From positions 14,324,501 through 14,388,500 of the forward strand of contig OY821750.1 in the NCBI GenBank assembly GCA_963682055.1: a stretch of 64,000 bases of DNA, written 5' to 3'. The position numbers and the translations under genes were made by a program. Below the pieces are notes generated by a model. That model saw nothing but the letters and a program-made list of their open reading frames with translations. It ran no database searches and was not told where the DNA came from. Each line of letters starts with the position of its first letter. The first letter of the stretch is position 1. This DNA is from Primula veris (taxonomy: Eukaryota; Streptophyta; Magnoliopsida; Ericales; Primulaceae). This document shows, piece after piece, positions 2,997 through 33,517 of this stretch.

Positions 2997-3001
2997 GACT
3001 G
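2997..3001. repeat. Target site duplication GACTG, left copy
   Basis: GACTG lies directly before the 5' LTR of the Tat element and is repeated exactly after the 3' LTR at 20417-20421. Confidence 0.95.
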
Positions 3002-3569
3002 TGATAGAACATAAAAATCAGACCCGAATATTTTATTCGGGTCATAATCAACCCACTTTATAAATGGGTATCCAACGCTTAAATGGGTCATCTCATACCT
3101 TTTATAGGAATTGAGGTGCTACACCCAAAAGCCCAAGCCCAATCAAAGGGGGACCCTTGTCTGAAAAATCCCTGGGATGAAGACATTTGTCAATATCCTA
3201 GAAGGCGCAGTTGCCTATAAATAGCCAACTACCCCTCCTAGAAAAAGACCAGAAAATCTATCCAAAAAATATAGAGAGAAGTTAAGAAAAGAGAGAAACT
3301 AACCAAAGCATATCACTTCGAGAAATAAACCGAGAAAAGACAGCCGAGCACCGAATAAAAGAGGAGAAAGATCAAGACGAGAGATTAAATAGTTATATCG
3401 AGCATAATTGTAAAGCCGAAATACTAATCCGAGCAAATGTAATAGTCCGAACAAGGACAATAATCCGAGCAATAATAAAGATCAGGAAATATCATTTATT
3501 CACGGTTGATTTATCATTATATCATTGTTGAAAAGCCTAACGCGACCGACCAAAGTTATGGCTTTATCA
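3002..3569 (+). repeat. 5' LTR of the Tat element
   Basis: Starts TGATAGAACA and ends GCTTTATCA. Near its start (3021-3043) is a perfect stem, GACCCGAATA/TATTCGGGTC, with a TTT loop. TATAAATAG at 3216-3224 is the likely promoter TATA box, and the purine-rich sequence downstream would be R/U5. Confidence 0.95.
3216..3224 (+). promoter_or_regulatory. LTR TATA box
   Basis: TATAAATAG in the middle of the 5' LTR, in the expected place for a U3 promoter. The same box is at 20063-20071 in the 3' LTR. Confidence 0.7.
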
Positions 3570-5652: not shown

Positions 5653-8600
5653 CCCAAGGGCCCAGGCGGGGAACGATCACGACAACGGCAGCTGGCCCAC
5701 TTTGGCCAAGTAGCCAAGACATCACAGGCGTCAACCTCTAAACGACAATGCACACCACGACGACATCCACCCATTTCTTTCTCGGATCTTGACGAAGAAG
5801 GGGTGATTTACCCCCACGGAGACGCCATTAACCTCCGTGTTCAAATCGGCCTAGACACAGTCAGCAGGGTACTTGTCGACCAAGGAGCCTCTTGTGATAT
5901 CATGTACAAGGAGCTCTTCGACAAGATGGAACTCAAGCTGCAAGATCTACAGCCTACCGATGTCACACTGATCGGATTCATCTCCGAAACGACCAAACCG
6001 TTGGGTATGATCGTCCTCAGTGTCACAACAGGGTCCATGTCGGTTCCCGTGGAGTTCTTAGTGGTCGACGACCACTCCGGGCACAACGCAATATTGGGCC
6101 GACCTTGGTTACATGCCATGAAGGCCATACCCTCGACCTATCACCAAAAGGTCAAATACCCAAATGATAGGGGAGCGATCGAGACAGCCAGAGGATGTCA
6201 AGAAGATTCGAGACGCTGCGAAGACATCATCGCGACTCTCCAAAAACAACGAAGCACTGTGGAACAACCCACCAGCACAAAGAAGCTGATCAACCAAATA
6301 TCCAAAACCGAAAGGGTGGTCGAAGAACAAGTAGGAGAGACACTCAGGAAGGTGTATATTCCTGATATGGACGAGGAGCACTACTTCCTCCTCGGCGACA
6401 ACCTTCCAAAACAGGAATCCGAGGAGTTGAAAGCATTCCTCCTCAACAACACTGATAAATTCGCCTGGAGTCCTAAAGACATGCCGGGCCTAGACCCCAA
6501 TACAGCATGCCACCACCTAAGTGTGAACGCCGAGTACAAGCCAATAGCACAGAGGAGCAGAAAAGTCTCTGTACAGCACAGAGCCGCTATAATCGCTGAA
6601 GTACAAAAGCTATTAGAGGCTGGAGCCATAAGGGAGGTTTACTATCCAAAATGGTTGTCCAACCCGGTCGTCGTCCCTAAGAAGAACGGGAAGGAGAGAG
6701 TCTGTATAGACTTCACCAACCTCAACAAAGCCTGCCCGAGGGACCACTTTCCCTTTCCAAGGATCGATCAACTGGTGGACGCAACAGCGGGAGCCGAACG
6801 GATGACCTTCCTTGACGCATACTCAGGATACCATCAAATTCCCCTCGCCCGCGAAGATCAAGAAAAGACTTCGTTTATCTCACCTTTGGGAAATTATTGC
6901 TATACGGTAATGCCGTTCGGCCTACGCAATGCAGGAGCAACATACCAAAGGATGATAACACGGGTATGTCGAGATCATATAGGGAAAACAATGGAGGTAT
7001 ACATAGACGACATGGTCGTCAAAAGCGAAAGAGCCACATCCCACCTTCAAGATATCAGGGACGTTTTCCGAACGCTGGGCGAGCACAAACTGAAACTCAA
7101 TGCGAGTAAGTGTGCATTTGGCATCAGCAAAGGGAAATTCTTGGGACATATGGTTAGCCGACGAGGAATAGAGGCTAATCCCGATCAAATAACGGCTCTA
7201 CGAAACCTAGCAGCGCCCAAGAATAAGAAACAGGTACAAGAGCTCACGGGAATGATGGCCGCGCTGAGCAGGTTCATTAGCCGATCCGCAGATAAGGGAC
7301 GGCCATTTTTCGAATCACTCAAGAAGGATAGAAAATTCGTCTGGGACCCGGAATGTGAAGCTTCATTCAACAATCTCAAAGAGTACTTGAGGACATTGCC
7401 ACTGCTAGTAAGGCCGAACAGAGGAGACATTCTGGCATGCTACCTAGCAGTTTCCTCTACAGCTGTGAGCGCGGTCATCCTGAGAGAAGAAGGTCGCGAA
7501 CAATTTCCGATCTACTTCGTCAGCAAGACTCTGGTCGAAGCCGAAACACGTTATCTACCCTTAGAAAAGCTGTGTCTGGCATTGGTCGTCGCAACCAGAA
7601 AGTTGCCACACTATTTCATAGCTCATCAGGTCCGGGTATACACAAAATTTCATATTAAAGAGTCACTTCGACGGACGGACATTAGCGGCCGAGTTGCCGC
7701 CTGGGGGGTCGAGCTATCCCAATTTCATATCGAGTTCGCACCCCGCCACGCCATAAAGGGACAAGTCCTGGCCGATTTCGTCGCAGAATTCACCGAAGGC
7801 TATGACGAGCCTTTGGCACTCTCTCCACAATCACACTGGCAGATACATGTCGACGGATCAGCCACCAAGGACGGATCAGGAGCAGGGATCGTCCTAAAGT
7901 CCAGCGAGGGAGCAATCATCGAAAAAAGCATAAAACTGGGCTTCCGAGCTACCAACAATGAGGCAGAATACGAGGCCATGATAAATGGCATGCTTATTGC
8001 CCGGTCCCTCGGATGCTCCCACTTAATTGCAAGCTCAGACTCCATGCTCATCGTCAATCAAGCCATCGGCGAGTACCAAGCGAAAGATGATAGAATGATC
8101 CTCTACCAAGAGAAAGTCCAAAGCTTGATGGCAACCTTCGAACAGTGCGAGTTAGTAAGAATCAATCGCACCGAGAATGCACATGCCGATGCATTGGCCA
8201 CTCTAGCCTCGACATTAACATTGACCGACACCCGGTCGATCACAGTGGAACTACTGCCGACCCCGAGCATAATAAAAAGGGTAAACCGGGTGACATCGAT
8301 ACAGTACGAACTAGGATGGATGGAGGACATGACCCATTATCTGCGAAATGGAACGCTTCCGGTCGACAAGATAAAAGCGCTGAAAATTACAAGAAAAGCT
8401 CCTCGCTTCTGGCTATCCGAGGACGATAAACTATACAAATCCAGTTACCGGGGACCACATCTACTGTGCGTCCCGACCGAGCTACAACTGCCGGTCTTGG
8501 AGGAAATCCACGAAGGATCTTGCGGAGCACACATCAAAGGGCGATCCCTTGCAAACAAGGCAGTGACCCAAGGATATTGGTGGCCCTATATCAAGCGAGA

Positions 8601-9567
8601 CGCCGATGCATACGTCCAACGATGCGACAAGTGCCAACGATTCGCCAAGATACCACGGCTCCCTTCATCTATGATGACCCCGGTATCAGCACCATGGCCG
8701 TTCGCTCAATGGGCAATCGATTTGGTCGGTAAACTCCCAAGAGCACCTGGGAATGTGGAATATCTGATCGTTGCGACTGATTATTTCACCAAATGGGTTG
8801 AAGCTAAACCCCTCCGAGAAATCAAAGCCAGCAACGTCAAACAATTCATTTGGGAATACATCATAACTAGGTTCGGTATACCGTACGCTATAGTCGCCGA
8901 CAACGGAACCCAGTTCAAAGATGCCAATTTACAGCTGTGGTACGAGGAACTCGGTATCCGAAAATTCTATTCGACGCCGACATACCCACAAGGGAACGGG
9001 CAAGCCGAAGTGTCAAACCGAACCATATTAGACGGCATCAAGACCACCCTTGAACAAGCAAAGGGGAGGTGGCCCGAGCGGCTACTCAACGTTTTATGGT
9101 CGTGCCGAACTACACCCAAGACGGGCACCAAGGAAACCCCCTTTAGCTTAGCATACGGTGTTGAGGCCGTCATACCGACAGAGATCGGGCTACCTACGCT
9201 CCGAACAACGTTGGTCGAGCAGGGAAATAATGAACAAAGAATGAGAGAAGAGCTCGACATGATAGACGAGAAACGAGAGATAGCGGCCCTTACCTTAGCT
9301 AAATACCAACAAAGCGTAAAGCAAACCTATGACAAGAGAGTAAAAGGATCTAAAGAATTCATGGTAGGAGAACTGGTGCTGCGACGAGTGACGGTCTATA
9401 CCCGCAACGAAATACATGGCAAACTGAGCCCTACCTGGGAAGGCCCATACGAAATCGTCAAGCGAACAAGTCCAGTCTCTTACAAAATCAAAAGCGTCCT
9501 GTTCGCCAACAGCCGAGGGGAAAAGAATTCTTGGAACGTGGCTAACCTAAAGAAGTACTACGTATAG
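5653..9567 (+). CDS. pol: Retrotransposon Pol polyprotein (PR-RT-RH-aRH-INT)
   Basis: This frame is in phase with gag and open from directly after the gag TGA; no ATG is needed if the stop is read through. Positions below count residues from codon 5803. Aspartic protease: VDQGASCDIM near residue 23. Reverse transcriptase: about 280-450, with YIDD near 400. A gypsy RNase H-like region: about 540-665. A second, archaeal-type RNase H: about 680-805 (VDGSATKDGSGAGIV, NNEAEYEAM, SDSMLIVNQ, NAHADALATLAS). Integrase: H-H-C-C finger about 903-948, then D near 972 (AIDLVG), D near 1033 (VADNGTQF) and E near 1069 (GQAEVSNR), giving the DD35E spacing. There is no chromodomain. No frameshift or internal stop is visible, so this copy looks enzymatically intact. 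Confidence 0.93.
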   Translation, partial: PKGPGGERSRQRQLAHFGQVAKTSQASTSKRQCTPRRHPPISFSDLDEEGVIYPHGDAINLRVQIGLDTVSRVLVDQGASCDIMYKELFDKMELKLQDLQPTDVTLIGFISETTKPLGMIVLSVTTGSMSVPVEFLVVDDHSGHNAILGRPWLHAMKAIPSTYHQKVKYPNDRGAIETARGCQEDSRRCEDIIATLQKQRSTVEQPTSTKKLINQISKTERVVEEQVGETLRKVYIPDMDEEHYFLLGDNLPKQESEELKAFLLNNTDKFAWSPKDMPGLDPNTACHHLSVNAEYKPIAQRSRKVSVQHRAAIIAEVQKLLEAGAIREVYYPKWLSNPVVVPKKNGKERVCIDFTNLNKACPRDHFPFPRIDQLVDATAGAERMTFLDAYSGYHQIPLAREDQEKTSFISPLGNYCYTVMPFGLRNAGATYQRMITRVCRDHIGKTMEVYIDDMVVKSERATSHLQDIRDVFRTLGEHKLKLNASKCAFGISKGKFLGHMVSRRGIEANPDQITALRNLAAPKNKKQVQELTGMMAALSRFISRSADKGRPFFESLKKDRKFVWDPECEASFNNLKEYLRTLPLLVRPNRGDILACYLAVSSTAVSAVILREEGREQFPIYFVSKTLVEAETRYLPLEKLCLALVVATRKLPHYFIAHQVRVYTKFHIKESLRRTDISGRVAAWGVELSQFHIEFAPRHAIKGQVLADFVAEFTEGYDEPLALSPQSHWQIHVDGSATKDGSGAGIVLKSSEGAIIEKSIKLGFRATNNEAEYEAMINGMLIARSLGCSHLIASSDSMLIVNQAIGEYQAKDDRMILYQEKVQSLMATFEQCELVRINRTENAHADALATLASTLTLTDTRSITVELLPTPSIIKRVNRVTSIQYELGWMEDMTHYLRNGTLPVDKIKALKITRKAPRFWLSEDDKLYKSSYRGPHLLCVPTELQLPVLEEIHEGSCGAHIKGRSLANKAVTQGYWWPYIKRDADAYVQRCDKCQRFAKIPRLPSSMMTPVSAPWPFAQWAIDLVGKLPRAPGNVEYLIVATDYFTKWVEAKPLREIKASNVKQFIWEYIITRFGIPYAIVADNGTQFKDANLQLWYEELGIRKFYSTPTYPQGNGQAEVSNRTILDGIKTTLEQAKGRWPERLLNVLWSCRTTPKTGTKETPFSLAYGVEAVIPTEIGLPTLRTTLVEQGNNEQRMREELDMIDEKREIAALTLAKYQQSVKQTYDKRVKGSKEFMVGELVLRRVTVYTRNEIHGKLSPTWEGPYEIVKRTSPVSYKIKSVLFANSRGEKNSWNVANLKKYYV

Positions 9568-9662
9568 GCAATGCTCCGAATACAAGTACAGGTGTTACCT
9601 TACCCTTTTTGCTTAATGGCATTATCTTTCTTCTTTTGAATGAATAAAATATATTATTATGC

Positions 9663-10760
9663 TGTCTACTAATACTATGAAATTCCCAACATGGCCGAAG
9701 TGCCTAGGAATACTATGAAATTCCGTAAATGGCGTGTTACCGAAGGAACGTCTAGGAATACTATGAAATTCCCAACATGGCCGAAGTGTCTAGGAATACT
9801 ATGAAATCCCGTAAATGGCGTGTTACCGAAGGAACGTCTAGGGATACTATGAAATTCCCAGCATGGCCGAAGTGCCTAGGAATACAATGAAAGTCCGTAA
9901 ATGGCGTGTTACCAAAGGAACGTCTAGGCATACTATGAAATTCCCAGCATGGCCGAAGTGCCTAGGAATACAATGAAAGTCCGTAAATGGCGTGTTACCA
10001 AAGGAACGTCTAGGCATACTATGAAATTCCCAGCATGGCCGAAGTGCCTAGGAATACAATGAAAGTCCGTAAATGGCGTGTTACCAAAGGAACGTCTAGG
10101 CATACTATGAAATCCCGTAAATGGCGTGTTACCGAAGGAACGTCTAGGGATACTATGAAATTCCCAGCATGGCCGAAGTGCCTAGGAATACAATGAAAGT
10201 CCGTAAATGGCGTGTTACCTAAGGAACGTCTAGGCATACTATGAAATTCCCAACATGGCCGAAGTGCCTAGGAATACTATGAAATTCCGTAAATGGCGTG
10301 TTACCGAAGGAACGTCTAGGAATACTATGAAATTCCCAACATGGCCGAAGTGCCTAGGAATACTATGAAATCCCGTAAATGGCGTGTTACCGAAGGAACG
10401 TCTAGGGATACTATGAAATTCCCAGCATGGCCGAGGTGCCTAGGAATACAATGAAAGTCCGTAAATGGCGTGTTACCAAAGGAACGTCTAGGCATACTAT
10501 GAAATTCCCAGCATGGCCGAAGTGCCTAGGAATACAATGAAAGTCCGTAAATGGCGTGTTACCAAAGGAACGTCTAGGCATACTATGAAATTCCCAACAT
10601 GGCCGAAGTGCCTAGGAATACTATGAAATTCCGTAAATGGCGTGTTACCGAAGGAACGTCTAGGGATACTATGAAATTCCCAACATGGCCGAAGTGCCTA
10701 GGAATACGATGAAATTCCCAACATGGCGTGTTACCGAAGGAACGCCTAGGAATACTATGA
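9663..10760 (+). repeat. Tandem array of about 86-bp composite units
   Basis: Roughly 12-13 copies alternate a 38-bp half (GGAATACTATGAAATTCCCA, then an ACATGGCCGAAGTGCCTA part) with a 48-bp half (same start, then CGTAAATGGCGTGTTACCGA and AGGAACGTCTA). Copies differ by a few bases and some halves are skipped, so the array evolves by unequal exchange or slippage. Arrays just after pol are known in Tat/Ogre elements and can seed satellite DNA. The following 300 bases, 10761-11058, hold no gene I can support. Confidence 0.9.
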
Positions 10761-11058
10761 AATTTATATGCAGGTACAATGCAAGGAATTATTCAGTTCC
10801 ACTTTACGACGGCGATGCAATATAAATTGGCTAAAACAATGAAGGAGAATCAATCTAAACAACAAAATATCAACAAGAAGCATCTCCAAAACAGGGATAA
10901 CGAAATAACAAATGATTTAGCAAGGAAAAATCGATCCAATCAATTAAATAGCAATACGGCAATGGAAAGGTACAAAACAGGAATAAAGAAATCACATATA
11001 TAGTCCTCGCCCGCATTACGGAGGCAACAAGAAGATCAACGACACTAAAGAGATTCAT

Positions 11059-11697
11059 TTAAGAAGAGCTACTGCAGGAGGAGCACGACGGTAATTGACC
11101 GAGCTCAATCTCTTCGTCATCCGTCGTTGTGTACCCATCAGACTCATCACCATCAAAACGCTCCTCAGAAATGAGGGCATCAAAATTGGTCGTATGAGCC
11201 CCAACACAAGTCAGCGTCTGAAGTCGCGCGTTGAACTCGGCTTCTTTGGTGGACTCGTGAGCATCCGAGGCCGCTTTACGGCGATCATCGTCAAAGGAGA
11301 GGTCACGGCGAGCTTCAATCACAGCTGCGGAAGCATCGTATCTGGCGCGGGACAAACGGAAATACTTCACCAACACGTTGGCCTTGGTCACAAGCAACTT
11401 TAATTTGCCGAAGTACTCGCCCTTTGCACGCCAATATCGATCCAAACGACGCTCCTGAACCTCAACAGCATGCTCGGCACGGCGAACGTATTCCCGAAAA
11501 GAGGCCGCCTGGGTTTTCAGCTTGGTCCGCAGTCGAGCACATTGATCGGTCAATTTGACATTTTTGCTCATCAAAACAATGTAGGGCCACCTGTCAGGCA
11601 CCTCACTAGCCGCACCAGATGAGACCTCGTCCCGGGCAGCACCAGTAGGTCCTAACCCCGGGTTAACTAGGCATGGAGAACCAACCTGGTGCGACAT
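11059..11697 (-). CDS. Antisense coiled-coil protein C of the Tat element
   Basis: 212 residues read from ATG at 11697. No enzyme motif is recognisable. The first 40 residues are flexible; a long helical, charged region follows (DQCARLRTKLKTQAASFREY, then heptad-like R/A/E-rich sequence to about residue 165). The tail is very acidic and serine-rich (DDEEIELGQLPSCSSCSSSS). TATAAAAA lies about 120 bases upstream on the same strand. TTTTTATAG just before the ATG could instead be a 3' splice site, so joining to gene B is an alternative. Function unknown; the composition suggests a protein-protein interaction role. Confidence 0.6.
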   Translation of the reverse strand: MSHQVGSPCLVNPGLGPTGAARDEVSSGAASEVPDRWPYIVLMSKNVKLTDQCARLRTKLKTQAASFREYVRRAEHAVEVQERRLDRYWRAKGEYFGKLKLLVTKANVLVKYFRLSRARYDASAAVIEARRDLSFDDDRRKAASDAHESTKEAEFNARLQTLTCVGAHTTNFDALISEERFDGDESDGYTTTDDEEIELGQLPSCSSCSSSS

Positions 11698-11811
11698 AGT
11701 AGCATGTGCCTATAAAAAAAAAGAGGGGGGGAGACGAACGAGAAGAGATGAATAAACAAAAAGAAAGAAGCTACCAAAAACAAAAACAAAAAGAGAAGCG
11801 AGAGAATTTTT

Positions 11812-11819
11812 TATACAAG
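11812..11819 (-). promoter_or_regulatory. Putative TATA box for antisense gene C
   Basis: TATAAAAA on the - strand, about 115 bases before the ATG at 11697 and after the stop of gene B. Confidence 0.45.
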
Positions 11820-11851
11820 CTACAAAGAAAACAACAAAACAAGCTATTTTA

Positions 11852-12466
11852 CTAATCCGACAACCCCTCAACAGACGCCGAAGCCTCTACTACATCGGCA
11901 AAATGAATATCTCGCAATGAATTAATTTGCGTCCCCAAACGCTCACGAATGACCGCCTCGATTCGGTTTAAGACAACAGTGGTTTCAGTTACCCCGGCCT
12001 TCGCATCCACCATGCGCTCTGCCCGGGACACACCACTCATTCCTTTTATATGCTCCAGCACCTCTAAGGCGCGAGCTCGGGCCCAATACGCTTTGGCAAA
12101 GGATAGCAGCAGATCCGCGTCCTCGAAAACGGCCCCAAGGACCAAGCTCAAGCTCGTCACACGACCTCGGGCTTCATCACGAGAACGTCGTAGGGCACTG
12201 AGAAGCTCCTTTGCTTTACCCTTATTTGCCGTATAATGGGCGGTCTTTTTACTAAATTTCTCTCCCAAATCACGTAACCGGATCGCCAGGTTGGAAATAT
12301 GAATATTCAGACCCTCGATTTCCTGATAGGCACAAGTCAATTTCGCGGTAAGGGACGCGTTAGACCTTTCCAAATCCTCCATTACGTCACCTACACTACG
12401 ACTAGGCGAGGTCCAGACCACCATGGCAAGGGGGTTATTTGGTACCTGACAATATTTTGTTTTCAT
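11852..12466 (-). CDS. Antisense coiled-coil protein B of the Tat element
   Basis: 204 residues if started at the ATG at 12466 (the frame is open a little further upstream without an ATG). Most of it is predicted helix with heptads (MEDLERSNASLTAKLTCAYQ, IRLRDLGEKFSKKTAHYTAN) and an acidic/alanine-rich end. It lies between antisense genes A and C on the same strand. A (TA)n run at 12612-12632 lies upstream. CAG at the codon before GTACCAAA could be a splice acceptor, so this may be an exon of a larger antisense gene. Not recognised beyond coiled coil. Confidence 0.5.
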   Translation of the reverse strand: MKTKYCQVPNNPLAMVVWTSPSRSVGDVMEDLERSNASLTAKLTCAYQEIEGLNIHISNLAIRLRDLGEKFSKKTAHYTANKGKAKELLSALRRSRDEARGRVTSLSLVLGAVFEDADLLLSFAKAYWARARALEVLEHIKGMSGVSRAERMVDAKAGVTETTVVLNRIEAVIRERLGTQINSLRDIHFADVVEASASVEGLSD

Positions 12467-12576
12467 ATCCTTCAAAATATGACGACCATCAAAAGAAATT
12501 AACCCAAGCAAGCCCAACAGAAAGAAACCACAACACCTATATTATCACTTCCCCAAAAGAATCTGTTTCTAGATAC

Positions 12577-12632
12577 AAAAAAAAATAAAAAATAAAAAAA
12601 TAAAAAAATAAAAATATATATATATATATATA
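12577..12632. repeat. A-rich/TA low-complexity tract
   Basis: A run of AAAAAT-like units followed by (TA)n, in the gap between antisense genes A and B. Confidence 0.85.
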
Positions 12633-12651
12633 CATAATGCTAGAAAGATAG

Positions 12652-14984
12652 TCAAGGTTCCACCTGAGGAGATGCTGGTGGGGGAACAACAGTAGCATCC
12701 GGTCGAGGAGTGGACGCGGTCGACATAAAGTGAGGACGCAGCGCTGTCGAAATTGTCTGCCCCGGTAGCCGAGGAAGCTCTTCTTCACGAAGATTCGCCC
12801 AGTCCAAGGGTTTCGGCGGTGCACCATGCGGACATGGATACACCAACTCCGACCACGCCCTATCCCACAGAGGAACATTCGCGAAATTGAGCGCCCGCAC
12901 ATGAGCGCAGTATACAGAAAAGTTGGCCATCATCGCTAACTTTTTTCGCTCCTCCGCCTGTTCCGTTTTCAGGGCAGACACCTTAGCCTTTTCGGCTTCC
13001 ACGTCCTCAACCAGGAGCAAGTTCTCCTCCTCTAATTCGCCGTACTTAGCGGCCATGCTCTCTTTTTCCACCCTCAATTTCTCGACATCCTCGGTCAGGT
13101 GCAGGAAGTCCACCGACAGTTTGTCATAATTCTCGCCCAGGGTTTTCTTCTCGGTGACCAATTTCTCCTTTTCGGCCACCAGATTATCCTTCTCGGCCAC
13201 CAGCTTCTCTTTCTCAGCCCCTAGAGCTCCCAGCTGATCCCGTAGCGCCACGGCACTCACAGCAATCTGCACTTCAACACATTAGTTTCCAAATAAAATA
13301 CAAGTACCAAACCTATATAGTGCAATACGAGCCCCACGTACCCTCAGCGCATCCGCGTGGGCCTGCTCTATAACTGACATTGTAGGTTGGGCAGATAGTT
13401 TTTCTGCATTCTTGAACACAAGGGGTTTCAGAGCCGTATACCCCATCTTCAGCGTTCTCGGTTGATCCAGCAGTTCACCCCTACATCGGTCAATGTACCG
13501 GGTCATTGCAACCCCGTCAACCAACCCCTTCTCGGATCCGTCGAGAGCCTCATCCTCGACACCCGTCACAACATCCCCGGCATTCTCTTCGCTGCCTTCC
13601 ATCTCCACCCCCACGTCCTCCTCCAACTGCTCAATCTCAGGGGCCCTATGCTCGATCTCTTCCTCATTACGGAGGGGCGAGCACACGGACAAATCTATCG
13701 GACCCTCGGTGGGGATAGGCGAGATGACCGGCAAAGTCATCGTACCCTCTCCCATGTTCGTCAAGAGGTTCATATATCCGAATACATCGTCGACCGACCC
13801 CTAAAACACAATAATACCCATAGACCGGGCAAGAGCGAGGGTAACCAATGGAGAAGTCAGTAGCTGAAACAAGATGACTAATAAAGCAAAGCACTAGCGA
13901 ACCAAATGACAAACAACCAAAAGACAAGAAAATCATAATACATATACACATACCTCGCCCGGAGCAGAGGCATCCTCGGCGGTATCCCCTTGAGCAGCGG
14001 CAAACACCCCCTCGCCCGAGCCAACGTTAGCATCTTCCTCGGTAACCGATGTATCGGTTCCCCTAGCCCTCTTCGTTGTTTCAACGATAGGGTCAGCTGC
14101 ACGACGCTTAGAACGAACGGCTTTTTTCCCAAGCCGAGTAGCACATCGAGCCTGGACCACCTTTAAGAATTCCTCCTCGGGCTCTTTGGGGATCTCGGGT
14201 GCAGGATTTCCCCTGGTCACCGACCCCATAGGGTAACCGAGCAACATGTGAGCCGTACGACTCGCAGGATCCGGCGTAGGTCCAGGCCCCCACCATTTCC
14301 AAAGAGCTAACAGAGCCTCTACATTGGGGGCGCCGAGGTCTGGCATGATGGGAGCATTGGTCGCCGGTCCAGGAATCTGGTGTCCCGCACAACCCCATGC
14401 ACTGGAAGCAATTACAATACCAAGATTACGCTCTTTATTGGTATCCGGCAAACCGATAACGAGCCGGCAAAAGGCACGCAGAGTCTTCAAATACGAGCTG
14501 CGACGCTCAAAGCTCAGACTATAGACTCCAAAGACGTCCTTCAGTTCAATCGGTATTCCGGACAACTCCGATAGCCTTTGGATACCATTCAGAGTACGGT
14601 AACCATTTAGGGCCAGTTGGGCCGGAGCAATTTGGACGGCCTCAAAGAACGAAGCCACCCATTTTGTAAAGGGCAGTCGAAGACCCCCAGTGAAGAATGC
14701 CGAAGAACGCACGGCCACCTCGCCGGCAGGTACAAATCCCAGCACCTCTTCGTCAGAAATAGGAAGCCGGATATGTATGTTGTCAGGTATTCCGGCGAGT
14801 TCTTTAAAATCCTTCTCCACGAATGTGCCAACTTGGGCCACACTTTGGGTCAAAATTTCCTATACAAAGATCATCAAAAGTCCATCAATATACTAACCAA
14901 ATACACAAACCAGAACCACATCAATAGAACGAGAGCCACCACCCCCCCCCCCCCCACGCACATTACATCAGAATCATCAGACAT
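12652..14984 (-). CDS. Antisense four-exon gene A: 'putative gypsy-type transposon' domain plus coiled coil
   Basis: Gene model on the - strand, all introns GT-AG and phase 0: exons 14984-14967 (an 18-base first exon), 14859-13954, 13800-13342 and 13266-12652, giving about 665 residues. Introns are 107, 153 and 75 bases. Exon 2 carries FFTGGLRLPFTKWVASFFEA and the following LNGYRTLNGIQRLSELSGI, which match the plant PF04195 family. Exon 3 is acidic. Exon 4 has perfect heptad-like coiled coil (repeated LVAEKE/KL units), then a Pro-rich end. Donors read GAG|GTATG and AGG|GTACGT; acceptors TTTTAG|GGG and GTGCAG|ATT. Every splice keeps the frame open, which supports a functional antisense transcript. 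The tiny first exon is the least certain part. The biochemical role of the family is unknown. Confidence 0.8.
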
Positions 14985-15054
14985 ATATAGATAACCTGAA
15001 CCATATACCAACGACACACCTATGACCACAACGACAAATCAAATACAACTCCTA

Positions 15055-15123
15055 AAAGAGGGAAGGGGGGTGATAGAACATAAAAATCAGACCCGAATAT
15101 TTTATTCGGGTCATAATCAACCC
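15055..15123 (+). repeat. Internal polypurine tract plus first 53 bases of the LTR
   Basis: AAAGAGGGAAGGGGGG at 15055-15070 is followed directly by TGATAGAACATAAAAATCAG and the rest of the LTR start, including the hairpin at 15090-15112. It is identical to the LTRs for 53 bases, then diverges after AATCAACCC. A purine tract ending exactly at an LTR start is the signature of a 3' LTR boundary, so this looks like a second, truncated 3' end inside the element. The sequence from 15124 to 15293 holds no gene I can support. Confidence 0.9.
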
Positions 15124-15293
15124 GAAAAGCTTCTCACATATGCTACCACTACTATCACACCGAGAATATCCCCCGATTAAAGTTCCTCGACTCCCAAACC
15201 AATCCTTAACACAAGGGCACACCGAACAAAGTGGACGAAGACCGTTTCTAGCTTGATGGCAGGGAGCATCAAGTCTAACAACGCTCTCCGGGG

Positions 15294-15465
15294 GGATAAC
15301 CGGGCATATTGTTCGGTGTATGCATATTGTTCGGTGTATTATCAGAAACATAAAAGAGAAGCGGATAACCGGGCATATTGTTCGGTGTATTATCAGAAAC
15401 ATAAAAGAGAAGCGGATAACCGGGCATATTGTTCGGTGTATGATCAGAAACATAAAAGAGAAGCA
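15294..15465 (+). repeat. 51-bp tandem repeat, about three copies
   Basis: Units of GGATAACCGGGCATATTGTT, CGGTGTATTATCAGAAACAT and AAAAGAGAAGC. The first copy has an extra 18-bp internal duplication of CATATTGTTCGGTGTAT. Confidence 0.9.
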
Positions 15466-15506
15466 AACAGGAAATAAAATAGGACAGAATCAAATGCAAG
15501 ACAAGT

Positions 15507-15512
15507 TTTATT
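15507..15512 (-). terminator. AATAAA poly(A) signal for antisense gene D1
   Basis: AATAAA on the - strand about 56 bases after the stop codon of the reading frame ending at 15568. Confidence 0.5.
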
Positions 15513-15567
15513 CATCCACAAAGGGGGAAACACAAACAATACAACAGAAAAAGAAAATACACCCATC

Positions 15568-15930
15568 CTACTTTTTCGAACTATCCCCCATACCAACATC
15601 CCTCTTCGCCAAAAGTTCCTCCAGACGCTCTTTCTCCCTAACCAAACGAGAAATCGCCATCTCAGCCTGTTTCAAGGCGTAAGACTGAGACTCGCATTTT
15701 TGCTCGGCCTTGAAACGAGCAGTGCCCTCCTCGTCCCAATATTGTTTAAACCTCCTCGCTTCAGTCCGAGCACACATGAGATCATGTTTCAGCCATGACA
15801 TCTCAATTTCTTTTAGTTGAAGAGGAGTCAAATCCTCCTCCCCAAAGCCAGGGGGACGAGGTAGCAAAAAGGTAGGCTCCTCTTCCATAAGGGCTTTCTT
15901 TTTGGAGGCAGACCTAGTGATGGGAGCCAT
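15568..15930 (-). CDS. Antisense small coiled-coil gene D1
   Basis: 120 residues from ATG at 15930 (MAPITRSASKKKALMEEEP). A basic N-terminus, which could serve nuclear import, is followed by a helical segment (LKQAEMAISRLVREKERLEE) and a short Ser/Lys tail. On the same strand a TATA box (16005-15998) lies 68-75 bases before the ATG, and AATAAA lies 56 bases after the stop. It therefore looks like a compact one-exon gene. First of five such genes between the internal LTR fragment and the 3' LTR. No known family recognised. Confidence 0.6.
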   Translation of the reverse strand: MAPITRSASKKKALMEEEPTFLLPRPPGFGEEDLTPLQLKEIEMSWLKHDLMCARTEARRFKQYWDEEGTARFKAEQKCESQSYALKQAEMAISRLVREKERLEELLAKRDVGMGDSSKK

Positions 15931-15997
15931 CTCACGCAAAAGCAAATTATAAAACAAGAGAGGTAGAAATTGATAATGAGATACAGGCAATAAGGAG

Positions 15998-16005
15998 CAT
16001 TTATA
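15998..16005 (-). promoter_or_regulatory. Putative TATA box for D1
   Basis: TATAAATG on the - strand, in a C-rich context, upstream of the D1 start codon and downstream of D2. Confidence 0.5.
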
Positions 16006-16148
16006 GAGAATCAAAAGGCACAAAATACGAAGCGTTACAATGGTTCACAAGACAGGCACGAGACACGAAAAGATACAACTGATTCATCAAATACAGAAGA
16101 TAAAACACAAATGGCAAAAGGGGAAATACAAAAGAAAACCAGCCCAAT

Positions 16149-16628
16149 CTAAGGATCAATGGGTGGAAAAACCGAACTGCCAGACCGAGAGAAAGCAAAA
16201 CGAGCAGAACAATTCAACCGAGCTTGGTAGGAATCGTTCATGGCGACCAAATCGTCATTCTCCGAGGAGAGCCTGTTGTTTTCCGTAGTAAGAACCCTGA
16301 CGTGTTCCACGAGCCGAGCATTCTTTACCATTATGTTAGCTAGGCCTTGAGGAGAGTTGTCAAACTCATCTTGAGAATGGTCCCAAATTTCCTCGGCATC
16401 ATACCAGGAGTTGGCCAGATGGTTTCTCTGCAGCAACAAGTGATCGAGCTGGCGACTCAGTGCCGAGATCTCGGTCCACTTCACCGTCTCTTCGGGATAA
16501 GAGCCGAACAAGCTCAAGGCCAAAATGCCATACTCTTTCTCAAGCCTTGCCATCCGACGGCGGACCCGAGATACCTCAGTATCCAAGCCCTTCATCTGAG
16601 CATGATATCTCACCACAGGTCCAGACAT
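16149..16628 (-). CDS. Antisense small coiled-coil gene D2
   Basis: 159 residues from ATG at 16628 (MSGPVVRYHAQMKGLDTEVS). Helical and charged, with an ERNHLANSW-like middle and an asparagine/glutamate heptad region (VRVLTTENNRLSSENDDLVA). It shares its start context with D3: AATTTCCC, a few bases, then ATGTCTGG, and the first residues MSGP. The two probably arose by duplication and diverged. A TATAAGTA box lies about 100 bases upstream (16731-16724). No poly(A) hexamer is obvious before D1. Confidence 0.6.
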   Translation of the reverse strand: MSGPVVRYHAQMKGLDTEVSRVRRRMARLEKEYGILALSLFGSYPEETVKWTEISALSRQLDHLLLQRNHLANSWYDAEEIWDHSQDEFDNSPQGLANIMVKNARLVEHVRVLTTENNRLSSENDDLVAMNDSYQARLNCSARFAFSRSGSSVFPPIDP

Positions 16629-16723
16629 TCTGGGAAATTGTTTAGTACGGAAGAAAATAAAGGGCTAAGGAAGAGAGAAGCAAAAAGAAAAAAGAGATGA
16701 TAAACTACCAAAGAAAAGAGAAG

Positions 16724-16731
16724 TACTTATA
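16724..16731 (-). promoter_or_regulatory. Putative TATA box for D2
   Basis: TATAAGTA on the - strand about 100 bases before the D2 ATG. It occupies the same relative place as the boxes of D1, D3, D4 and D5. Confidence 0.45.
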
Positions 16732-17037
16732 GAACGAAGAGTACGATATTTTATGACCTTGCTTGGGAAATTGCATATTTCCTGACATGCTGGGGGGCAT
16801 GTACATTTCCTGACCTACTAGGGAGCATGCACTTATGTTTGACAGTGACGGGGACATCTATTGACATCTGAGACTACAGTGCAGAAGAAATAAAGACGAG
16901 ATATTCAAAGATCTAGATCCCAGACAAACAACAAACCACAGGTACAATATAAAAAGAAAGGCAAAAAGAAAAGGGCAAAAATACTTTTCATTAATGAAGA
17001 TGGAATACATCATTGTTCATTACATCAATAGACAATA

Positions 17038-17162
17038 TTACATCGAGGTCTGTTACATCGAGGTCTGTTACATCCGAGATAAAAACCTATTACATCCGAA
17101 AAGAAAATCTATCACATCCGAGATAAAACCTATTACATCCGAAAAGATCTATTACATCGAGA
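17038..17162 (+). repeat. Short tandem repeats with TTACATCCGA/TTACATCGAG core
   Basis: Six to seven imperfect copies of a TTACATC(C)GAG core at irregular 18-25 base spacing, between D2 and the purine tract. Confidence 0.75.
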
Positions 17163-17220
17163 AGAGCTAGTACAGAAGATCAGGCAAAGGATCAACTATA
17201 TCAGCTGACCAAGTGAGCAG

Positions 17221-17715
17221 GAGACGCCAAAAAGAAAAAGTAAGAAGAAAGAGAAAGGAAAAGCAAGAAGAGGAAAAGAAGAAGAGTGCAAGAAAAGAAG
17301 GAAGTGATAAGAAAGAAGAGTCAAAAAGAAAAATGACCAACCCTAAATGTAACACAAAACCCTTTGGATCACAGGGCTGATTGTTACATCGTAGTGGTGC
17401 ATAAAAAAAAAAAAAAAAAAAAGAGTGATGGGAGAGAAGATGAAGAAAAAGAAAGAGGAGGCACAGAAGAAAAACAGATGAGAAGAAGATAAAGAGACGA
17501 AGGAGACAGACAACTAAAAAGGAAGTCAATTAAACAAAAAAGAAACGGAAAAAGAAAAGAATAAAAAGTACGAGAAAACAGAGTATAAAAAAAAAACACA
17601 AGAGAGGAAGAGGAAGAAATGATGGAAACGGAGAAATAAAAAATAAAAAAAAAGGAAGAGATGGGAAAAGATGGGGAAAGAGCAGAGAAAAAGAAAAAAA
17701 GAAGGGGGAAGGTTA
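17221..17715 (+). repeat. About 500-bp purine-rich (GA/AAG) tract
   Basis: The + strand is overwhelmingly A and G (AAAGAAAAAGTAAGAAGAAA style), with one break around 17335-17400. Apparent Ser/Phe/Leu-rich antisense frames across it are products of the strand bias, not genes. Confidence 0.9.
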
Positions 17716-18006
17716 GGGGGAAGTCGATCGGTATCGATGAGAGGGCCCGGCAGAGACATCCCTGTCCCTCAGTGTCGGGTTCCCCCTTAGCATCTCATTC
17801 TTTTCGACTAGAGCCTGACGAGCACGTCGGCAGTAAGCCAGTTCGGATCTTAGCCAAGTTAATTCCCGAACCATCTCGGTATGGTGATAACGCATCACCT
17901 TCAATTCCTCCTCGGCATCGCTCAACAGCCTTTGTACATGGTTATAGGAGGCTTCAAAGGCCTCCACTTGCAAAGCTAATGCTGATTGGGTGAAAGGACC
18001 AGACAT
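17713..18006 (-). CDS. Antisense small coiled-coil gene D3
   Basis: 97 residues from ATG at 18006 (MSGPFTQSALALQVEAFEAS). One long amphipathic helix (VQRLLSDAEEELKVMRYHHT and on) is followed by a Ser/Arg tail. It resembles D2 in the 5' flank and first residues. A classical TATA box, TATAAATA, lies at 18098-18091, with a second (CATATATAGA) closer to the ATG. The 480 bases upstream (18100-18570) are non-coding. They contain short repeats of CAAGAAA(A)CGTTTGGATTC and of AAGGCTCAAGAAA. Confidence 0.55.
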   Translation of the reverse strand: MSGPFTQSALALQVEAFEASYNHVQRLLSDAEEELKVMRYHHTEMVRELTWLRSELAYCRRARQALVEKNEMLRGNPTLRDRDVSAGPSHRYRSTSP

Positions 18007-18090
18007 CTTAGGGAAATTATAAGATGAGGGTCTATATATGGGGGAAAATAATATGATGAGAAGTGTGGATGTAACCATGCTGTAAGCAGG

Positions 18091-18098
18091 TATTTATA
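18091..18098 (-). promoter_or_regulatory. Putative TATA box for D3
   Basis: TATAAATA on the - strand, about 85-92 bases before the D3 ATG. Confidence 0.5.
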
Positions 18099-18573
18099 GA
18101 TCAATTGTATGAGGGCTGGGATTGAGAGTCGCAACCATTCGCCAATGGGTATTCAGAAGCGATGGCACTCAAAAGAGGTGACTGTTCAAGAAAAACGTTT
18201 GGATTCCCAAAAGACTCTAAAGAGCGTGAGTAATTAAAAGCCACTCCTGTTCAAGAAACGTTTGGATTCTTACCAATATTTAAAGGGAGTAAGTAATAAT
18301 GGCATTGAAACAGGCGTCGTTTTTGGGAAGAGCAGCGGTTCAAATAAATGTCCCAGATCTTTTGCGCAAGGCTCAAGAAAACTCTGGTGAATAGGATTTT
18401 CTATGCACAAGGCTCAAGAAATCCTAATAATCCCTAGATATAAAGAGTAAGAAGGTCCAATGGATAAGATCAAACGTCAGGCCCAAGAAAAGTATTAATG
18501 AGGCCACAAGCGTGCGCAGTCAAAATAAATTGCATTGGGAAAGTAATTCAGATATAAACAAGAAAAAGAAATC

Positions 18574-18579
18574 TTTATT
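18574..18579 (-). terminator. AATAAA poly(A) signal for antisense gene D4
   Basis: AATAAA on the - strand 62 bases after the D4 stop codon. Confidence 0.5.
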
Positions 18580-18640
18580 GATTGGTTGATACTTCGTTAC
18601 ATAAGAAGCACAAAGAGGAAATACAATGAAAACAATAAAA

Positions 18641-18979
18641 TCATTTCATAGAAGGGCCCGCTTCGTCATTCGGCTTCCTTTTCGACCGAGCATACACTTC
18701 CTTAAGGGCCAATTTGTAAGCCCTCTTGGAAGCAAGCTGCCTATCTCTGGAGGCCTCGAGCTCTTTGATCCGGGCACGAGCACGAATACTGTCGAGCAAA
18801 GACCTCTGGTGCTCCTTCTCTAGGGCATCCAATCGCTCGTCTAGTTCGGCGGCCCGACGAGCTTCCACCGACAGCCGGGCAACCCTCTTCTCGAGATAAC
18901 GCACCTTCTGAACTTCCTCTTCCAGACGGGCAACGTATTCAGGAAGGTTGTCACCATACTTTTCAAGAGGAGAAGCCAT
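18641..18979 (-). CDS. Antisense small coiled-coil gene D4
   Basis: 112 residues from ATG at 18979 (MASPLEKYGDNLPEYVARLE). Almost the whole protein is heptad coiled coil rich in Arg, Glu and Leu. It ends in KRAYKLALKEVYARSK plus an acidic/Ser tail, nearly the same as D5 (KRAYKLAFKELHARSK), so D4 and D5 are paralogues. On its strand TATAAAA lies about 55 bases before the ATG and AATAAA 62 bases after the stop: a complete minimal transcription unit. Confidence 0.65.
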   Translation of the reverse strand: MASPLEKYGDNLPEYVARLEEEVQKVRYLEKRVARLSVEARRAAELDERLDALEKEHQRSLLDSIRARARIKELEASRDRQLASKRAYKLALKEVYARSKRKPNDEAGPSMK

Positions 18980-19029
18980 TTGTTCGTTAATAAAGAATGA
19001 ACTGCATAAAAAATACTGGGACAGTCTCC

Positions 19030-19036
19030 TTTTATA
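19030..19036 (-). promoter_or_regulatory. Putative TATA box for D4
   Basis: TATAAAA followed by GG on the - strand, 51-57 bases before the D4 ATG. Confidence 0.55.
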
Positions 19037-19197
19037 AGAAGAAACAAGGAGTAGGTCAAAGGTCATCTTGAATAAATACAACCTCTTGAACTTCCCAAGA
19101 GCATTAAAGGCGAATTAACCACAGTTCCAAATCCAATTAAAGTCATCCAAAAAGACATCAAGAAGATAAACAGACAAGAACAAGGAAAGGAAAATAT

Positions 19198-19203
19198 TTT
19201 ATT
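19198..19203 (-). terminator. AATAAA poly(A) signal for antisense gene D5
   Basis: AATAAA on the - strand 80 bases after the D5 stop codon, before the TATA box of D4. Confidence 0.5.
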
Positions 19204-19282
19204 AATTCCAAAAACTTCGATTACAACTGAGGAGAAGACTCCCCATTCAAGAGAAATTACGACAGAAATTACAAAAGACTAA

Positions 19283-19603
19283 TTATTTCGAGGAAGAGCC
19301 TTCTTCATCGTCATCCGAACTCGGTTTGGACCGAGCATGCAACTCCTTGAAGGCAAGCTTATAGGCCCTTTTTGCTGCCTTCTGCTTAGCCAGATTAGCC
19401 TCGAGCTTCTTTATATGCTCATAGGCCCAATCCCGATCGGCCATCGTCACATGATGATCAGAATCCATGTCAGACAACCTTTTCTTGTAGTTTGAAACCT
19501 TGGCCACGAGTTTCTTATTCGCGGTACGAGATTTCTTGATTTCCGTTTCTAAATATGAAATATAATTAAAGGAGCTCTCACCAGTAGAACCAGAAGAAGC
19601 CAT
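19283..19603 (-). CDS. Antisense small coiled-coil gene D5
   Basis: 106 residues from ATG at 19603 (MASSGSTGESSFNYISYLET). Serine-rich start, coiled coil (KKSRTANKKLVAKVSNYKKR), then a KRAYKLAFKELHARSK block shared with D4 and an acidic/serine tail. TATAAAG lies at 19664-19658 and AATAAA at 19203-19198. It is the antisense gene nearest the 3' LTR. Its promoter lies only about 190 bases from the LTR start, so the LTR could influence it. Confidence 0.65.
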   Translation of the reverse strand: MASSGSTGESSFNYISYLETEIKKSRTANKKLVAKVSNYKKRLSDMDSDHHVTMADRDWAYEHIKKLEANLAKQKAAKRAYKLAFKELHARSKPSSDDDEEGSSSK

Positions 19604-19657
19604 TATGTCACGGGAAAATTAGTAGTAAAATGCCTAATTATGGAGGGAGCACACCCC

Positions 19658-19664
19658 CTTTATA
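19658..19664 (-). promoter_or_regulatory. Putative TATA box for D5
   Basis: TATAAAG followed by GGGG on the - strand, 55-61 bases before the D5 ATG. Confidence 0.55.
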
Positions 19665-19847
19665 GGAGTTTTCCTCGAAGAAAGATATTAGGATAGGAAA
19701 CATTAAATGTGCCCCCCTGGGAACCGTCACGAGTCTATTGCGTTTCTCGATGAAGCATTGGGAAAAACAAGACCGAAGTAACGTTCTCGACAAACCGAAC
19801 ATGACTCCCCCGACATGGAAACCACGCCGAGGAAGTCAGGGAGCACT

Positions 19848-20416
19848 TGATAGAACATAAAAATCAGACCCGAATATTTTATTCGGGTCATAATCAACCC
19901 ACTTTATAAATGGGTATCCAACGCTTAAATGGGTCATCTCATACCTTTTATAGGAATTGAGGTGCTACTACCCAAAAGCCCAAGCCCAATCAAAGGGGGA
20001 CCCTTGTCTGAAAAATCCCTGGGATGAAGACATTTGTCAATATCCTAGAAGGCGCAGTTGCCTATAAATAGCCAACTACCCCTCCTAGAAAAGGACCAGA
20101 AAATCTATCCAAAAAATATAGAGAGAAGTTAAGAAAAGAGAGAAACTAACCAAAGCATATCACTTCGAGAAATAAACCGAGAAAAGACAGCCGAGCACCG
20201 AATAAAAGAGGAGAAAGATCAAGACGAGAGATTAAATAGTTATATCGAGCATAATTGTAAAGCCGAAATACTAATCCGAGCAAATGTAATAGTCCGAACA
20301 AGGACAATAATCCGAGCAATAATAAAGATCAGGAAATATCATTTATTCACGGTTGATTTATCATTATATCATTGTTGAAAAGCCTAACGCGACCGACCAA
20401 AGTTATGGCTTTATCA
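19848..20416 (+). repeat. 3' LTR of the Tat element
   Basis: 569 bp, the same as the 5' LTR except for one substitution and one extra base. The sequence before it (GAGGAAGTCAGGGAGCACT) is only a weak polypurine tract. The strong one is at 15055-15070. Confidence 0.95.
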
Positions 20417-20421
20417 GACTG
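20417..20421. repeat. Target site duplication GACTG, right copy
   Basis: Exact repeat of 2997-3001. Confidence 0.95.
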
Positions 20422-24825: not shown

Positions 24826-26945
24826 TCGAGATTCGAAGTTTCTTAGGTTTAGCAAGATACTATCGACGGTTCGTCAAGGATTTCTCAAAGTTAGCAACTC
24901 CAATGACTCACCTTACCAAGAAAGGGGTGAAGTTTGTGTGGAGTGAGGCTTGAGAGAAAGCTTTCCTAGAGCTTAAGAAGTGGTTGACTAGTTCCCCCAT
25001 ACTAGTTATTCCCGAGCAAGGGAAGGGTTACCAAGTGTATTGCGATGCTTCGAATGAAGGTTTGGGTTGCGTCTTGATGCAAGACGGAAAGGTTATCGCA
25101 TATGCTTCGCGACAACTAAAGATTCACGAAAAGAACTATCCAACTCATGACCTAGAGCTAGCGGCAATAGTTCATGCGTTGAAGATATGGAGGCATTATC
25201 TGTTCGGGGAAAAGTTCGAAGTGTCCTCGGATCACAAGATCTTAGGGCATATTTTTACCCAACGTGATCTAAATATGCGACAACGGAGATGGATGGAATA
25301 TTTGGAACAGTACGACTATGACTTGCACTATCATCCGGGAAAGGCCAATGTAGTGGCGGATGCTTTGAGTCGAAAGTCCCATGCGACCTTAGCGCATGTG
25401 GCGATCGAGGAATGGAGGATGATGGGAAAGGTGAACGAGTTCAACTTGGAGTTGGGACATGTTGATGTGGGGACCCTGTACAAAATAGTGGTACAACCGG
25501 AACTTGTGAGTAGGATCTTGGAAGCACAAGATGGGGACGAAAAAGTAGAGAACTATGAGAAATAGATGAGTTCAAGCGAAGGATTAGATGGTTGGACGAA
25601 AGGAACCAATGGAGGACTACGATTTAAGGGAAGAACTTATGTGACAGAAAACATGAGGAATGAGGTATTAAAGGAGTTTCACCACTCCCGATTAGCCGTT
25701 CATCCAGGCGGGATGAAAATGTATCACGATGCGAAAAGACAATTTTGGTGGCCCGAAATGAAACGAGATGTAGCTTCATATTTTAGCAGATGTCTACCTT
25801 GCCAGCAAGTGAAAGCGGAGCACCAAAGGCCGGCGGGTATGCTCCAACCCTTACCGGTGATGGAATGGAAGTGGGAAAGGATAGCAATGGATTTTGTGAC
25901 CAACTTACCTAAATCGGTAAGTGGGAATGACACTGTGTGGGTTGTGGTCGACCATCTGACCAAATCCACACACTTCATTGAAATTAAGATGACGAACTCG
26001 GTGGACATCTTGGGACGAAAGTATATTAAGGAAATTGTTAGACTTCATGGGGTACCGATTTCGATAGTATCGGATCGAGACGCGAGGTTTGTGTCGAGGT
26101 TCTGGGACCCATTGCAAAATGCCTTAGGGACCAAGTTGACAATGAGTACAGCGTTTCATCCCCAAACGGATGGACAATCGGAACGGACTATCCAAGTGCT
26201 AGAGGATATGTTGCGCGCATGTGTGAATGACTTTAAGGGAGACTGGGAGAGCCATCTATCCTTAGTTGAGTTTGCGTATAATAATAGCTTTCAAGCTAGC
26301 ATTGGCATGGCACCTTTTGAGGCTTTATACGGGCGGTCGTGTAGGTCTCTGGTGTGTTGGACCGAGATGGGAGAAGCGGAAATGTTAGGATCGCAATTGA
26401 TTCAAGAGACGACAGAAAAGATTAAGTTAATTCGACAAAGGCTTGAGACGGCTCGAAGTAGGCAAAAGAGTTATGCGGATAAGAGGAGGAGACCTTTGGA
26501 GTTCGAAAAGGGGGATCAAGTATTTTTGCGAGTTTCGCCAAGGAAGGGTGTTATGAGGTTTGGCTCTAAAGGGAAGTTGAACCCGAGATTTATCGGACCA
26601 TTTGAGATCGTGGACCTAGTTGGAGAAGTTGCATACCGGTTGGACTTGCCAGCAAAGTTGGCGGTGGTACACCCGGTGTTCCATGTGTCAATGTTGAAAA
26701 AGTATCATCACGACCCTTCACACGTGGTGGACTTTGAGGACATTGAGGTGAGTGCGGATGTGACCTACGAAGTGGGACCTATGAGGATTATCGACGTGCA
26801 AGAGAAGGAACTTCGAGGAAAAACAATTAGATTGGTAAAGGTGGTTTGGAAACACCATGGGGCCGAGGAGGCAACTTGGGAACGCGAGAATGAGATGAAG
26901 AGGAAGTATCCTGACCTCGTGCTTTCTTTAGGTACTTTTGTTTAG
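24826..26945 (+). pseudogene. Ty3/gypsy (Tekay-type chromovirus) Pol 3' part
   Basis: Open in one frame except for two stops, TGA at 24951 and TAG at 25563. Order: RT thumb (RSFLGLARYYRRFVKDFSKL), RNase H ([38 protein letters not shown]), integrase with H-H-C-C finger (25680-25810) and D, D, E in AMDFVTNLP, VSDRDARFV and TDGQSERTIQ, then a C-terminal chromodomain (VEVSADVTYEVG-like start; VVWKHHGAEEATWERE). The long second piece (25566-26945, 459 codons) is undamaged, so decay is modest. Everything 5' of the RT thumb is missing at the junction with the antisense copia element. Confidence 0.9.
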
Positions 26946-31197: not shown

Positions 31198-31501
31198 TGT
31201 AATTTCTGAAGAAATTACACAGTCAGTCCCTGCTTTTCAGAATTACACAGTCAGTCCCTGCGCCAAAATTACACAGAAGGTCCCTGAAAAACAGAAACTT
31301 ACGTTTTTTTTAAAAAAAAAACATTTTTTATACTACATTCTCTCTCTTTCTCTCAAAAACCCCCAATTTTCAACCCAAAAAATCACCCAAATCAATCAAC
31401 CACATTAACTATCAACTTTATTAACAAAAAACCCCAAATCATCAATCAAACTTATCCATAATTCAAGGGTATATCTTTTATTCTCTAATTTATTATGTAT
31501 T

Positions 31502-31818
31502 TTGTGTAATTTAAATTTGTAAAATAGGAAAAAATATATAAAATATGCAAATCCATAATTCACTTAGCTATATATCATTGTTTGTTGTTTGTTTATATTA
31601 ATTATAGAAATTTTAATAATTGTTGATATTTGTCCCATTTTTGCATGTTTTTTTATTTTTTGTAATTTTAATTTGTAAAATAGGAAAAAATATATAAAAT
31701 ATGCAAAACCATAATTCACTTAGCTATATATAATTGTTTGTTGTTTGTTTATATTAATTATAGAAATTTTAATAATTGTTGATATTTGTCCCATTTTTGC
31801 ATGTTTTTTTATTTTGTT
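31502..31818. repeat. Tandem duplication of about 159 bp
   Basis: Two nearly identical copies run from TTTGTAAAATAGGAAAAAAT through TTGTCCCATTTTTGCATG. They lie between the left end and the satellite. The stretch 31200-31500 is non-coding. Confidence 0.88.
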
Positions 31819-31840
31819 TGGTTAATTTGAATTGTTGAGA

Positions 31841-33480: not shown

Positions 33481-33517
33481 ATCATTAATTGAGTTATATT
33501 TGGTTATCATAGTTAGG

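Follow-up and report, generated by a model that had tools for sequence, protein, structure and literature searches.

Candidate antisense accessory genes, five of them small and TATA-led, in a Tat-clade retrotransposon of Primula veris

Antisense open reading frames (ORFs) have been known in plant retrotransposons for years, and their function is not agreed. In maize Grande, gene23 lies antisense between pol and the 3' LTR, has its own upstream promoter and yields a nuclear product, and regulatory roles have been suggested for antisense ORFs (PMC7264820, accessible part). PvRetro13 of Phaseolus and Retand of Silene resemble the element described here in carrying antisense ORFs with SMC-like or TRP28 regions, but the accessible part of the same paper describes no series of small TATA-led genes in them (PMC7264820). 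As far as the available excerpts go, all of 63 surveyed Retand clusters have antisense ORFs, with 2,933-6,566 bp between pol and the 3' LTR (PMC11963269) and an internal region of 7,380-12,869 bp (PMC11963269; PMC6317226). One survey set its lower limit at 600 bp, admitting shorter ORFs that bear TRP28, and arrived at 104 antisense ORFs (PMC11963269, excerpt); the other set it at 250 codons (PMC6317226, excerpt). Both cut-offs exceed the lengths of the small genes reported below, so such surveys would miss a cluster of this type. The statement in an earlier note on this DNA, that Tat relatives may carry one or two antisense ORFs, fits the excerpted survey figures, but the surveys ignored anything shorter than 600 bp or 250 codons. 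Outside plants, HBZ and APH-2 of HTLV are antisense accessory genes of a retroelement with a nuclear role (PMC11963269, excerpt); the likeness is an analogy only, and each is a single gene read from the 3' LTR promoter, in contrast to the cluster here. A search of the literature, mainly open-access, found no plant element in which small antisense genes, led by TATA boxes of their own, are reported to form a cluster. Antisense ORFs as such were already known, and one of them has a promoter of its own.

The window (the whole 64-kb stretch of DNA that was analysed) comes from the 436.5 Mb genome of Primula veris, and between positions 3002 and 20416 it holds a complete 17.4 kb Ty3/gypsy element of the Tat clade, bounded by the target duplication GACTG. 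Its features are as follows.

3002-3569, plus strand: 5' LTR, TGATAG...TTATCA, with the target duplication GACTG at 2997-3001
3649-5652, plus strand: gag frame (Retrotrans_gag)
5803-9567, plus strand: pol frame (protease, RT, RNase H, RVT_3, integrase)
9578-10871, no strand assigned: array of 86-bp tandem repeats adjoining pol
11059-11697, minus strand: C, a frame of 212 aa
11852-12466, minus strand: B, a frame of 204 aa
12652-14984, minus strand: spliced TRP28-type gene with a diverged TRP28 (PF04195) region; exons 14984-14967 (doubtful), 14859-13954, 13800-13342 and 13266-12652
15054-15123, plus strand: purine tract, then 53 nt that repeat the start of the LTR and match both LTRs exactly
15568-15930, minus strand: D1, 120 aa; TATA at 16005, AATAAA at 15512
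16149-16628, minus strand: D2, 159 aa; TATAAG 103 nt upstream
17713-18006, minus strand: D3, 97 aa; TATA at 18098
18641-18979, minus strand: D4, 112 aa; TATA at 19036, AATAAA at 18579
19283-19603, minus strand: D5, 106 aa; TATA at 19664, AATAAA at 19203
19848-20416, plus strand: 3' LTR, with the target duplication GACTG at 20417-20421

The two LTRs differ by one substitution and one indel (99.65% identity), and with this near-identical pair and the 5-bp target duplication both present, the element is an intact LTR retrotransposon. When folded, the LTR start (3002-3054 and 19848-19900) gives a hairpin of 10 bp (z -4.8 against shuffles). Gag and pol share one frame, divided by a single in-frame TGA at 5650-5652 that may reflect readthrough or a mutation. 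Within pol, RT occupies residues 291-450, RNase H 514-641, RVT_3 683-801 and integrase 890-1062; angiosperm Tat elements are marked by an additional RNase H placed between the first one and integrase (PMC6317226, excerpt), and the element belongs in this clade because RVT_3 sits at just that place. With Retand, as described in the excerpts, it shares this second RNase H before integrase, a putative antisense TRP28-type gene, tandem repeats beside pol and a long stretch with antisense ORFs between pol and the 3' LTR. It differs in that this stretch measures 10,280 bp as against 2,933-6,566 bp, in an internal region of 16,278 bp as against 7,380-12,869 bp, and in five extra small genes, D1-D5. 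The excess over the described length range must be read knowing that the range describes surveyed elements and is no strict criterion. The element is likely, though not proven, to belong to Retand, because the antisense TRP28 match is weak: exon 2 scores 16.1 bits (E 0.013) against PF04195, where the cut-off is 26.2, and the joined four-exon protein has no family match at E 0.001. Compared with Grande gene23, as far as the excerpt describes it, the difference lies in number (one gene there, eight here), and the promoters of the present genes are predicted from TATA sequence and its conservation.

The earlier note had proposed that a four-exon gene (14984-12652) and seven one-exon coiled-coil frames form an expanded antisense cluster of the element. 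The four-exon model, one of 216 in-frame exon combinations tried, has fitting GT-AG sites and a product of 665 aa in which basic clusters like those of nuclear signals occur around residues 257-272, but its first exon is doubtful, since the window lacks about 405 nt that lie just upstream in 17 of the 20 near copies. All five D frames are open in the window as single minus-strand exons. On the minus strand of 15124-19847 they are five ORFs of at least 95 aa, where dinucleotide shuffles average 0.47 and none of 500 reaches five, and their G+C content is 0.497 as against 0.375 in the spacers (6 of 1575 rotations). ORF length by itself is not decisive, because three ORFs, of 107-120 aa, occur on the plus strand of this stretch as well; the ratio of nonsynonymous to synonymous change (dN/dS) is. 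Behind D3, at 17242-17712, lies a long stretch that is purine-rich on the plus strand.

The purine tract and LTR start at 15054-15123 lie between the TRP28 gene and D1. This LTR piece is absent from all 20 near copies, 17 of which have at its site the spacer of about 405 nt; on the minus strand this spacer holds an ATG with GTAAGT after it, which may belong to the 5' portion of the TRP28 gene. In the window's copy, then, a stretch upstream of the TRP28 gene has been lost or exchanged, and the piece at 15054-15123 looks like a template switch or conversion, a rearrangement so far seen in this copy alone. The idea that D1-D5 are a segment added beyond an original polypurine tract was rejected, as the near copies have the D genes without the LTR piece, which makes D1-D5 regular parts of the family.

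Copies elsewhere in the genome are numerous. With D4 as a DNA query, the best 40 of 1266 candidates scored were 99-100% identical; with P0005 (a database relative of D2) as a protein query, the best 150 of 1439 candidates scored were 86-94% identical, and 127 of the 150 had no stop, among the matches listed; the TRP28 exon 2 query gave the best 129 of 1980 candidates scored. The 20 near copies fetched show 95-99% identity along most of their sequence and 88% in one piece, and in each the D region reaches the LTR end. Their right flanks were distinct in 15 of 16 examined, and the two copies that share the flank AATGG may be a tandem, because AATGG resembles the sequence following a 5' LTR. At least 20 of the 40 D4 matches listed, the window included, have a TRP28 match 2.5-9 kb further downstream on their own strand. 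The D genes travel with the element, as the run to the LTR, the differing flanks and the linked TRP28 gene attest. More distant relatives extend the association: the LTRs of L059 and L062 are 74% and 71% like that of the window and their D5-like proteins 64% and 62% identical, and in L060 the corresponding values are 88% for the LTR, 95% for D4 and 96% for D5. In one of the 30 diverged loci (L040/L063) the junction with an LTR end is some 110 nt away from the D region, and a further 4.6 kb read on its LTR side gave no gag, pol, B, C or TRP28 match; the locus is possibly a derivative that has kept the D genes.

The frames are intact in these copies as follows: D1 in 13/17, D2 in 15/18, D3 in 19/20 and D4 and D5 each in 20/20 near copies, and D1 in 16/30, D2 in 25/30 and D3 in 22/26 diverged copies. 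The diverged set was drawn by a D2 protein query and is biased toward readable D2, a bias of limited reach because D1 and D3 came by linkage. Many copies are broken, as the figure of only 16/30 for D1 illustrates, and this counts against reading the frames as genes. Net dN/dS between the near and diverged groups, about half of whose synonymous sites differ, was 0.10 for D1 (95% range 0.05-0.20), 0.13 for D2 (0.08-0.24) and 0.21 for D3 (0.07-0.56), and no bootstrap reached 1. These values are group means over at most 48 copies, from window-length genes only and with identities of 90-94% left out; the rows used, window included, were 36/48, 48/49 and 32/47. Raw pN/pS in the D frame was 0.18, 0.24 and 0.27 for D1, D2 and D3, the lowest of the six frames for all three; the wrong frames gave 0.92-2.05, with the exception of the plus-strand frame that has third positions in common (0.23-0.37).

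For D4 and D5, copies below 97% identity gave dN/dS of 0.09-0.44 in 8/9 comparisons. Against this count the ninth, a D5 with very few changes (1.07), and the D4 of L059, the tenth such copy, which carries a stop. Between the two paralogues themselves pN/pS was 0.57 (bootstrap range 0.42-0.77; none of 5000 bootstraps at or above 1). The longer genes were followed in three further diverged stretches, one of which (L063) is without all three; against the two others dN/dS was 0.12-0.25 for B, 0.14-0.15 for C and 0.14-0.35 for the TRP28 exons, with one stop each in C and in exon 3 in one of the two. P0007, a database relative of TRP28 exon 2, has 22 changes, of which residues 6-229 hold 6 and the last 77 residues 16 (Fisher 1.8e-6). 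Codon usage did not single out the D frames, a score that is uninformative here because TRP28 exon 2 ranks only fourth of the six frames once stops are ignored. The frames are thus kept open with dN/dS below 1, as the earlier note had expected of genes, and not randomly broken with dN/dS near 1; its expanded antisense cluster is part of the element, and selection has kept it across copies. Comparison of these sequences shows purifying selection on the frames as proteins, and dispersed copies have the D region next to their 3' LTR. The family evidently needs more than gag and pol, since several antisense ORFs pass the selection test at once.

Signals around the D genes had likewise been noted, TATA boxes before C and D1-D5 and AATAAA after D1, D4 and D5. 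TATAWA lies 57-92 nt upstream of four of the five D genes, and D2 has TATAAG 103 nt upstream; rotation of the stretch reached four of five in 57/4723 cases and five of five in 29/4723. All three AATAAA signals on the minus strand of the stretch were indeed found 40-100 nt past the stops of D1, D4 and D5, a placement matched by 36/4723 rotations. C has TATAAA at 11815, and it may be an exon without a promoter of its own because a pyrimidine tract ending in AG, like a splice acceptor, directly adjoins its ATG; the claim of TATA boxes thus stands for D1-D5 (TATAAG for D2) and less surely for C. In the copies, TATAWA was scored 40-130 nt upstream and AATAAA within 105 nt of the stop, using full-length protein matches with complete flanks (six matches at locus edges were dropped). 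TATAWA was present for D1 in 15/15 near and 22/24 diverged copies, for D3 in 22/22 and 20/21, for D4 in 20/20 and 1/1, and for D5 in 21/21 and 2/2; for D2 it was found in 0/15 near copies (TATAAG in 13/15) and 28/29 diverged ones. AATAAA followed D1 in 15/15 near and 23/24 diverged copies, D4 in 20/20 and 0/1, and D5 in 21/21 and 2/2; none lay within 105 nt of the stops of D2 and D3 in either group, or near TRP28, B and C in the window. Since the copies share descent, these counts are not independent trials. Taken as sequence, each D gene has a TATA box at core-promoter distance that is kept across subfamilies.

The proteins themselves fall into few relationships. D4 and D5 are paralogues, as first proposed (39% identity, E 2e-18, profile probability 98.6%), whereas D2 and D3, put forward as a second pair, are not: sequence comparison speaks against it, the profile probability is 0.33%, and the pairing was rejected. 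Growth of the set by duplication is thus visible once and not twice. Profiles built from the copies gave the D pairs other than D4/D5 at most 3.7%, and the cluster is taken to comprise four unrelated families (D1, D2, D3 and D4/D5) because only D4 and D5 are joined. The two proteins modelled, each from three sequences, are predicted to be helical, D2 as three long helices (mean pLDDT 71) and D4 as one helix over residues 9-99 (mean pLDDT 88). The description of the one-exon frames as coiled coils holds in part: set against shuffles, D2 (0/1000) and B (2/1000) have a clear heptad-like periodicity, D1 (38/1000) and D4 (45/1000) a marginal one, and C (87/1000), D3 (347/1000) and D5 (308/1000) none. 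No D protein matched a curated family above its cut-off, a fold search with the D2 model gave no match at E 0.001 or better, neither D2 nor TRP28 exon 2 had a PDB match by sequence at E 0.1, and scans of viral and prokaryote contigs found no relatives. In a protein database the D proteins have six relatives and TRP28 exon 2 has one, matches that carry no weight on spread because plant proteins are, by a control, nearly missing from that database.

The explanation regarded as highly probable is that this family carries a lasting antisense module of selected accessory protein genes, the spliced TRP28-like gene, B, C and D1-D5. That the D frames are chance or shadow ORFs without a protein role is hardly credible: the three plus-strand ORFs of comparable length, a codon usage that does not single out the D frames and the lack of a curated family above cut-off would suit it, but not the dN/dS of 0.10-0.21 for D1-D3 with wrong-frame controls, frames retained over 20% DNA divergence, and the constraint between D4 and D5. 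It might instead be the antisense RNAs that matter, by dampening or tuning the element through double-stranded RNA and small RNAs. Such a role has been proposed for antisense ORFs in general (PMC7264820, excerpt) and would agree with the conserved TATA boxes, but it predicts neither change biased to third positions nor low dN/dS, and as a substitute for proteins it is improbable; an RNA role could exist alongside the protein role.

It is quite improbable, too, that D1-D5 are captured host genes carried as passengers that the element does not use. Their compact TATA-ORF-AATAAA units do resemble ordinary host genes, and D1, D2, D3 and D4/D5 have no sequence link to one another, but the genes are intact and selected across subfamilies with LTRs up to about 29% apart, as passengers would not be; an ancient capture followed by use by the element is possible. 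An unlikely reading, though one with several points in its favour, is that one or a few long antisense transcripts include the D genes, the TATA boxes not being separate promoters. All eight genes point one way, a tract like a splice acceptor precedes C, and TRP28, B and C have no nearby AATAAA; against this stand the TATA boxes 55-107 nt ahead of each D gene, kept across subfamilies, and the AATAAA in which D1, D4 and D5 each end.

On the reading of a selected protein module, each D gene would be its own Pol II transcription unit, independent of the LTR promoter, and antisense placement would keep the AATAAA signals of the D genes off the genomic RNA. It seems somewhat probable that the D genes form a second, independent antisense programme beside TRP28, B and C, made up of several genes that are monocistronic and TATA-driven, encode small helical proteins from four unrelated families, are under purifying selection and move with the element. 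The small helical proteins may act in trans, as partners of one another and of the coiled-coil tail of the TRP28 protein, a tentative proposal that is possible though not probable. Assembly with TRP28 might, as a guess, serve a step linked to the nucleus, for instance import, integration or transcriptional control of the element; assembly and a nuclear role are suggested more weakly, by resemblance. Antisense small-gene modules may be widespread in Tat elements and hidden by ORF length cut-offs. Surveys with limits of 600 bp or 250 codons may have overlooked an entire layer of genes in these elements, and gene models annotated in plants as short 'orphans' may be retrotransposon genes. The five D genes (four families) and the three longer genes supply concrete proteins for tagging, location and pull-down.

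Elsewhere in the 64-kb window, throughout which Rfam gave no match, a remnant integrase with an SH3_Tf2-1 tail, from another Ty3/gypsy element, lies at 25566-26945. A plant mobile domain protein (PF10536, E 1.8e-41) lies at 33455-34519, adjoined by an array at about 56-bp spacing (31498-33517).
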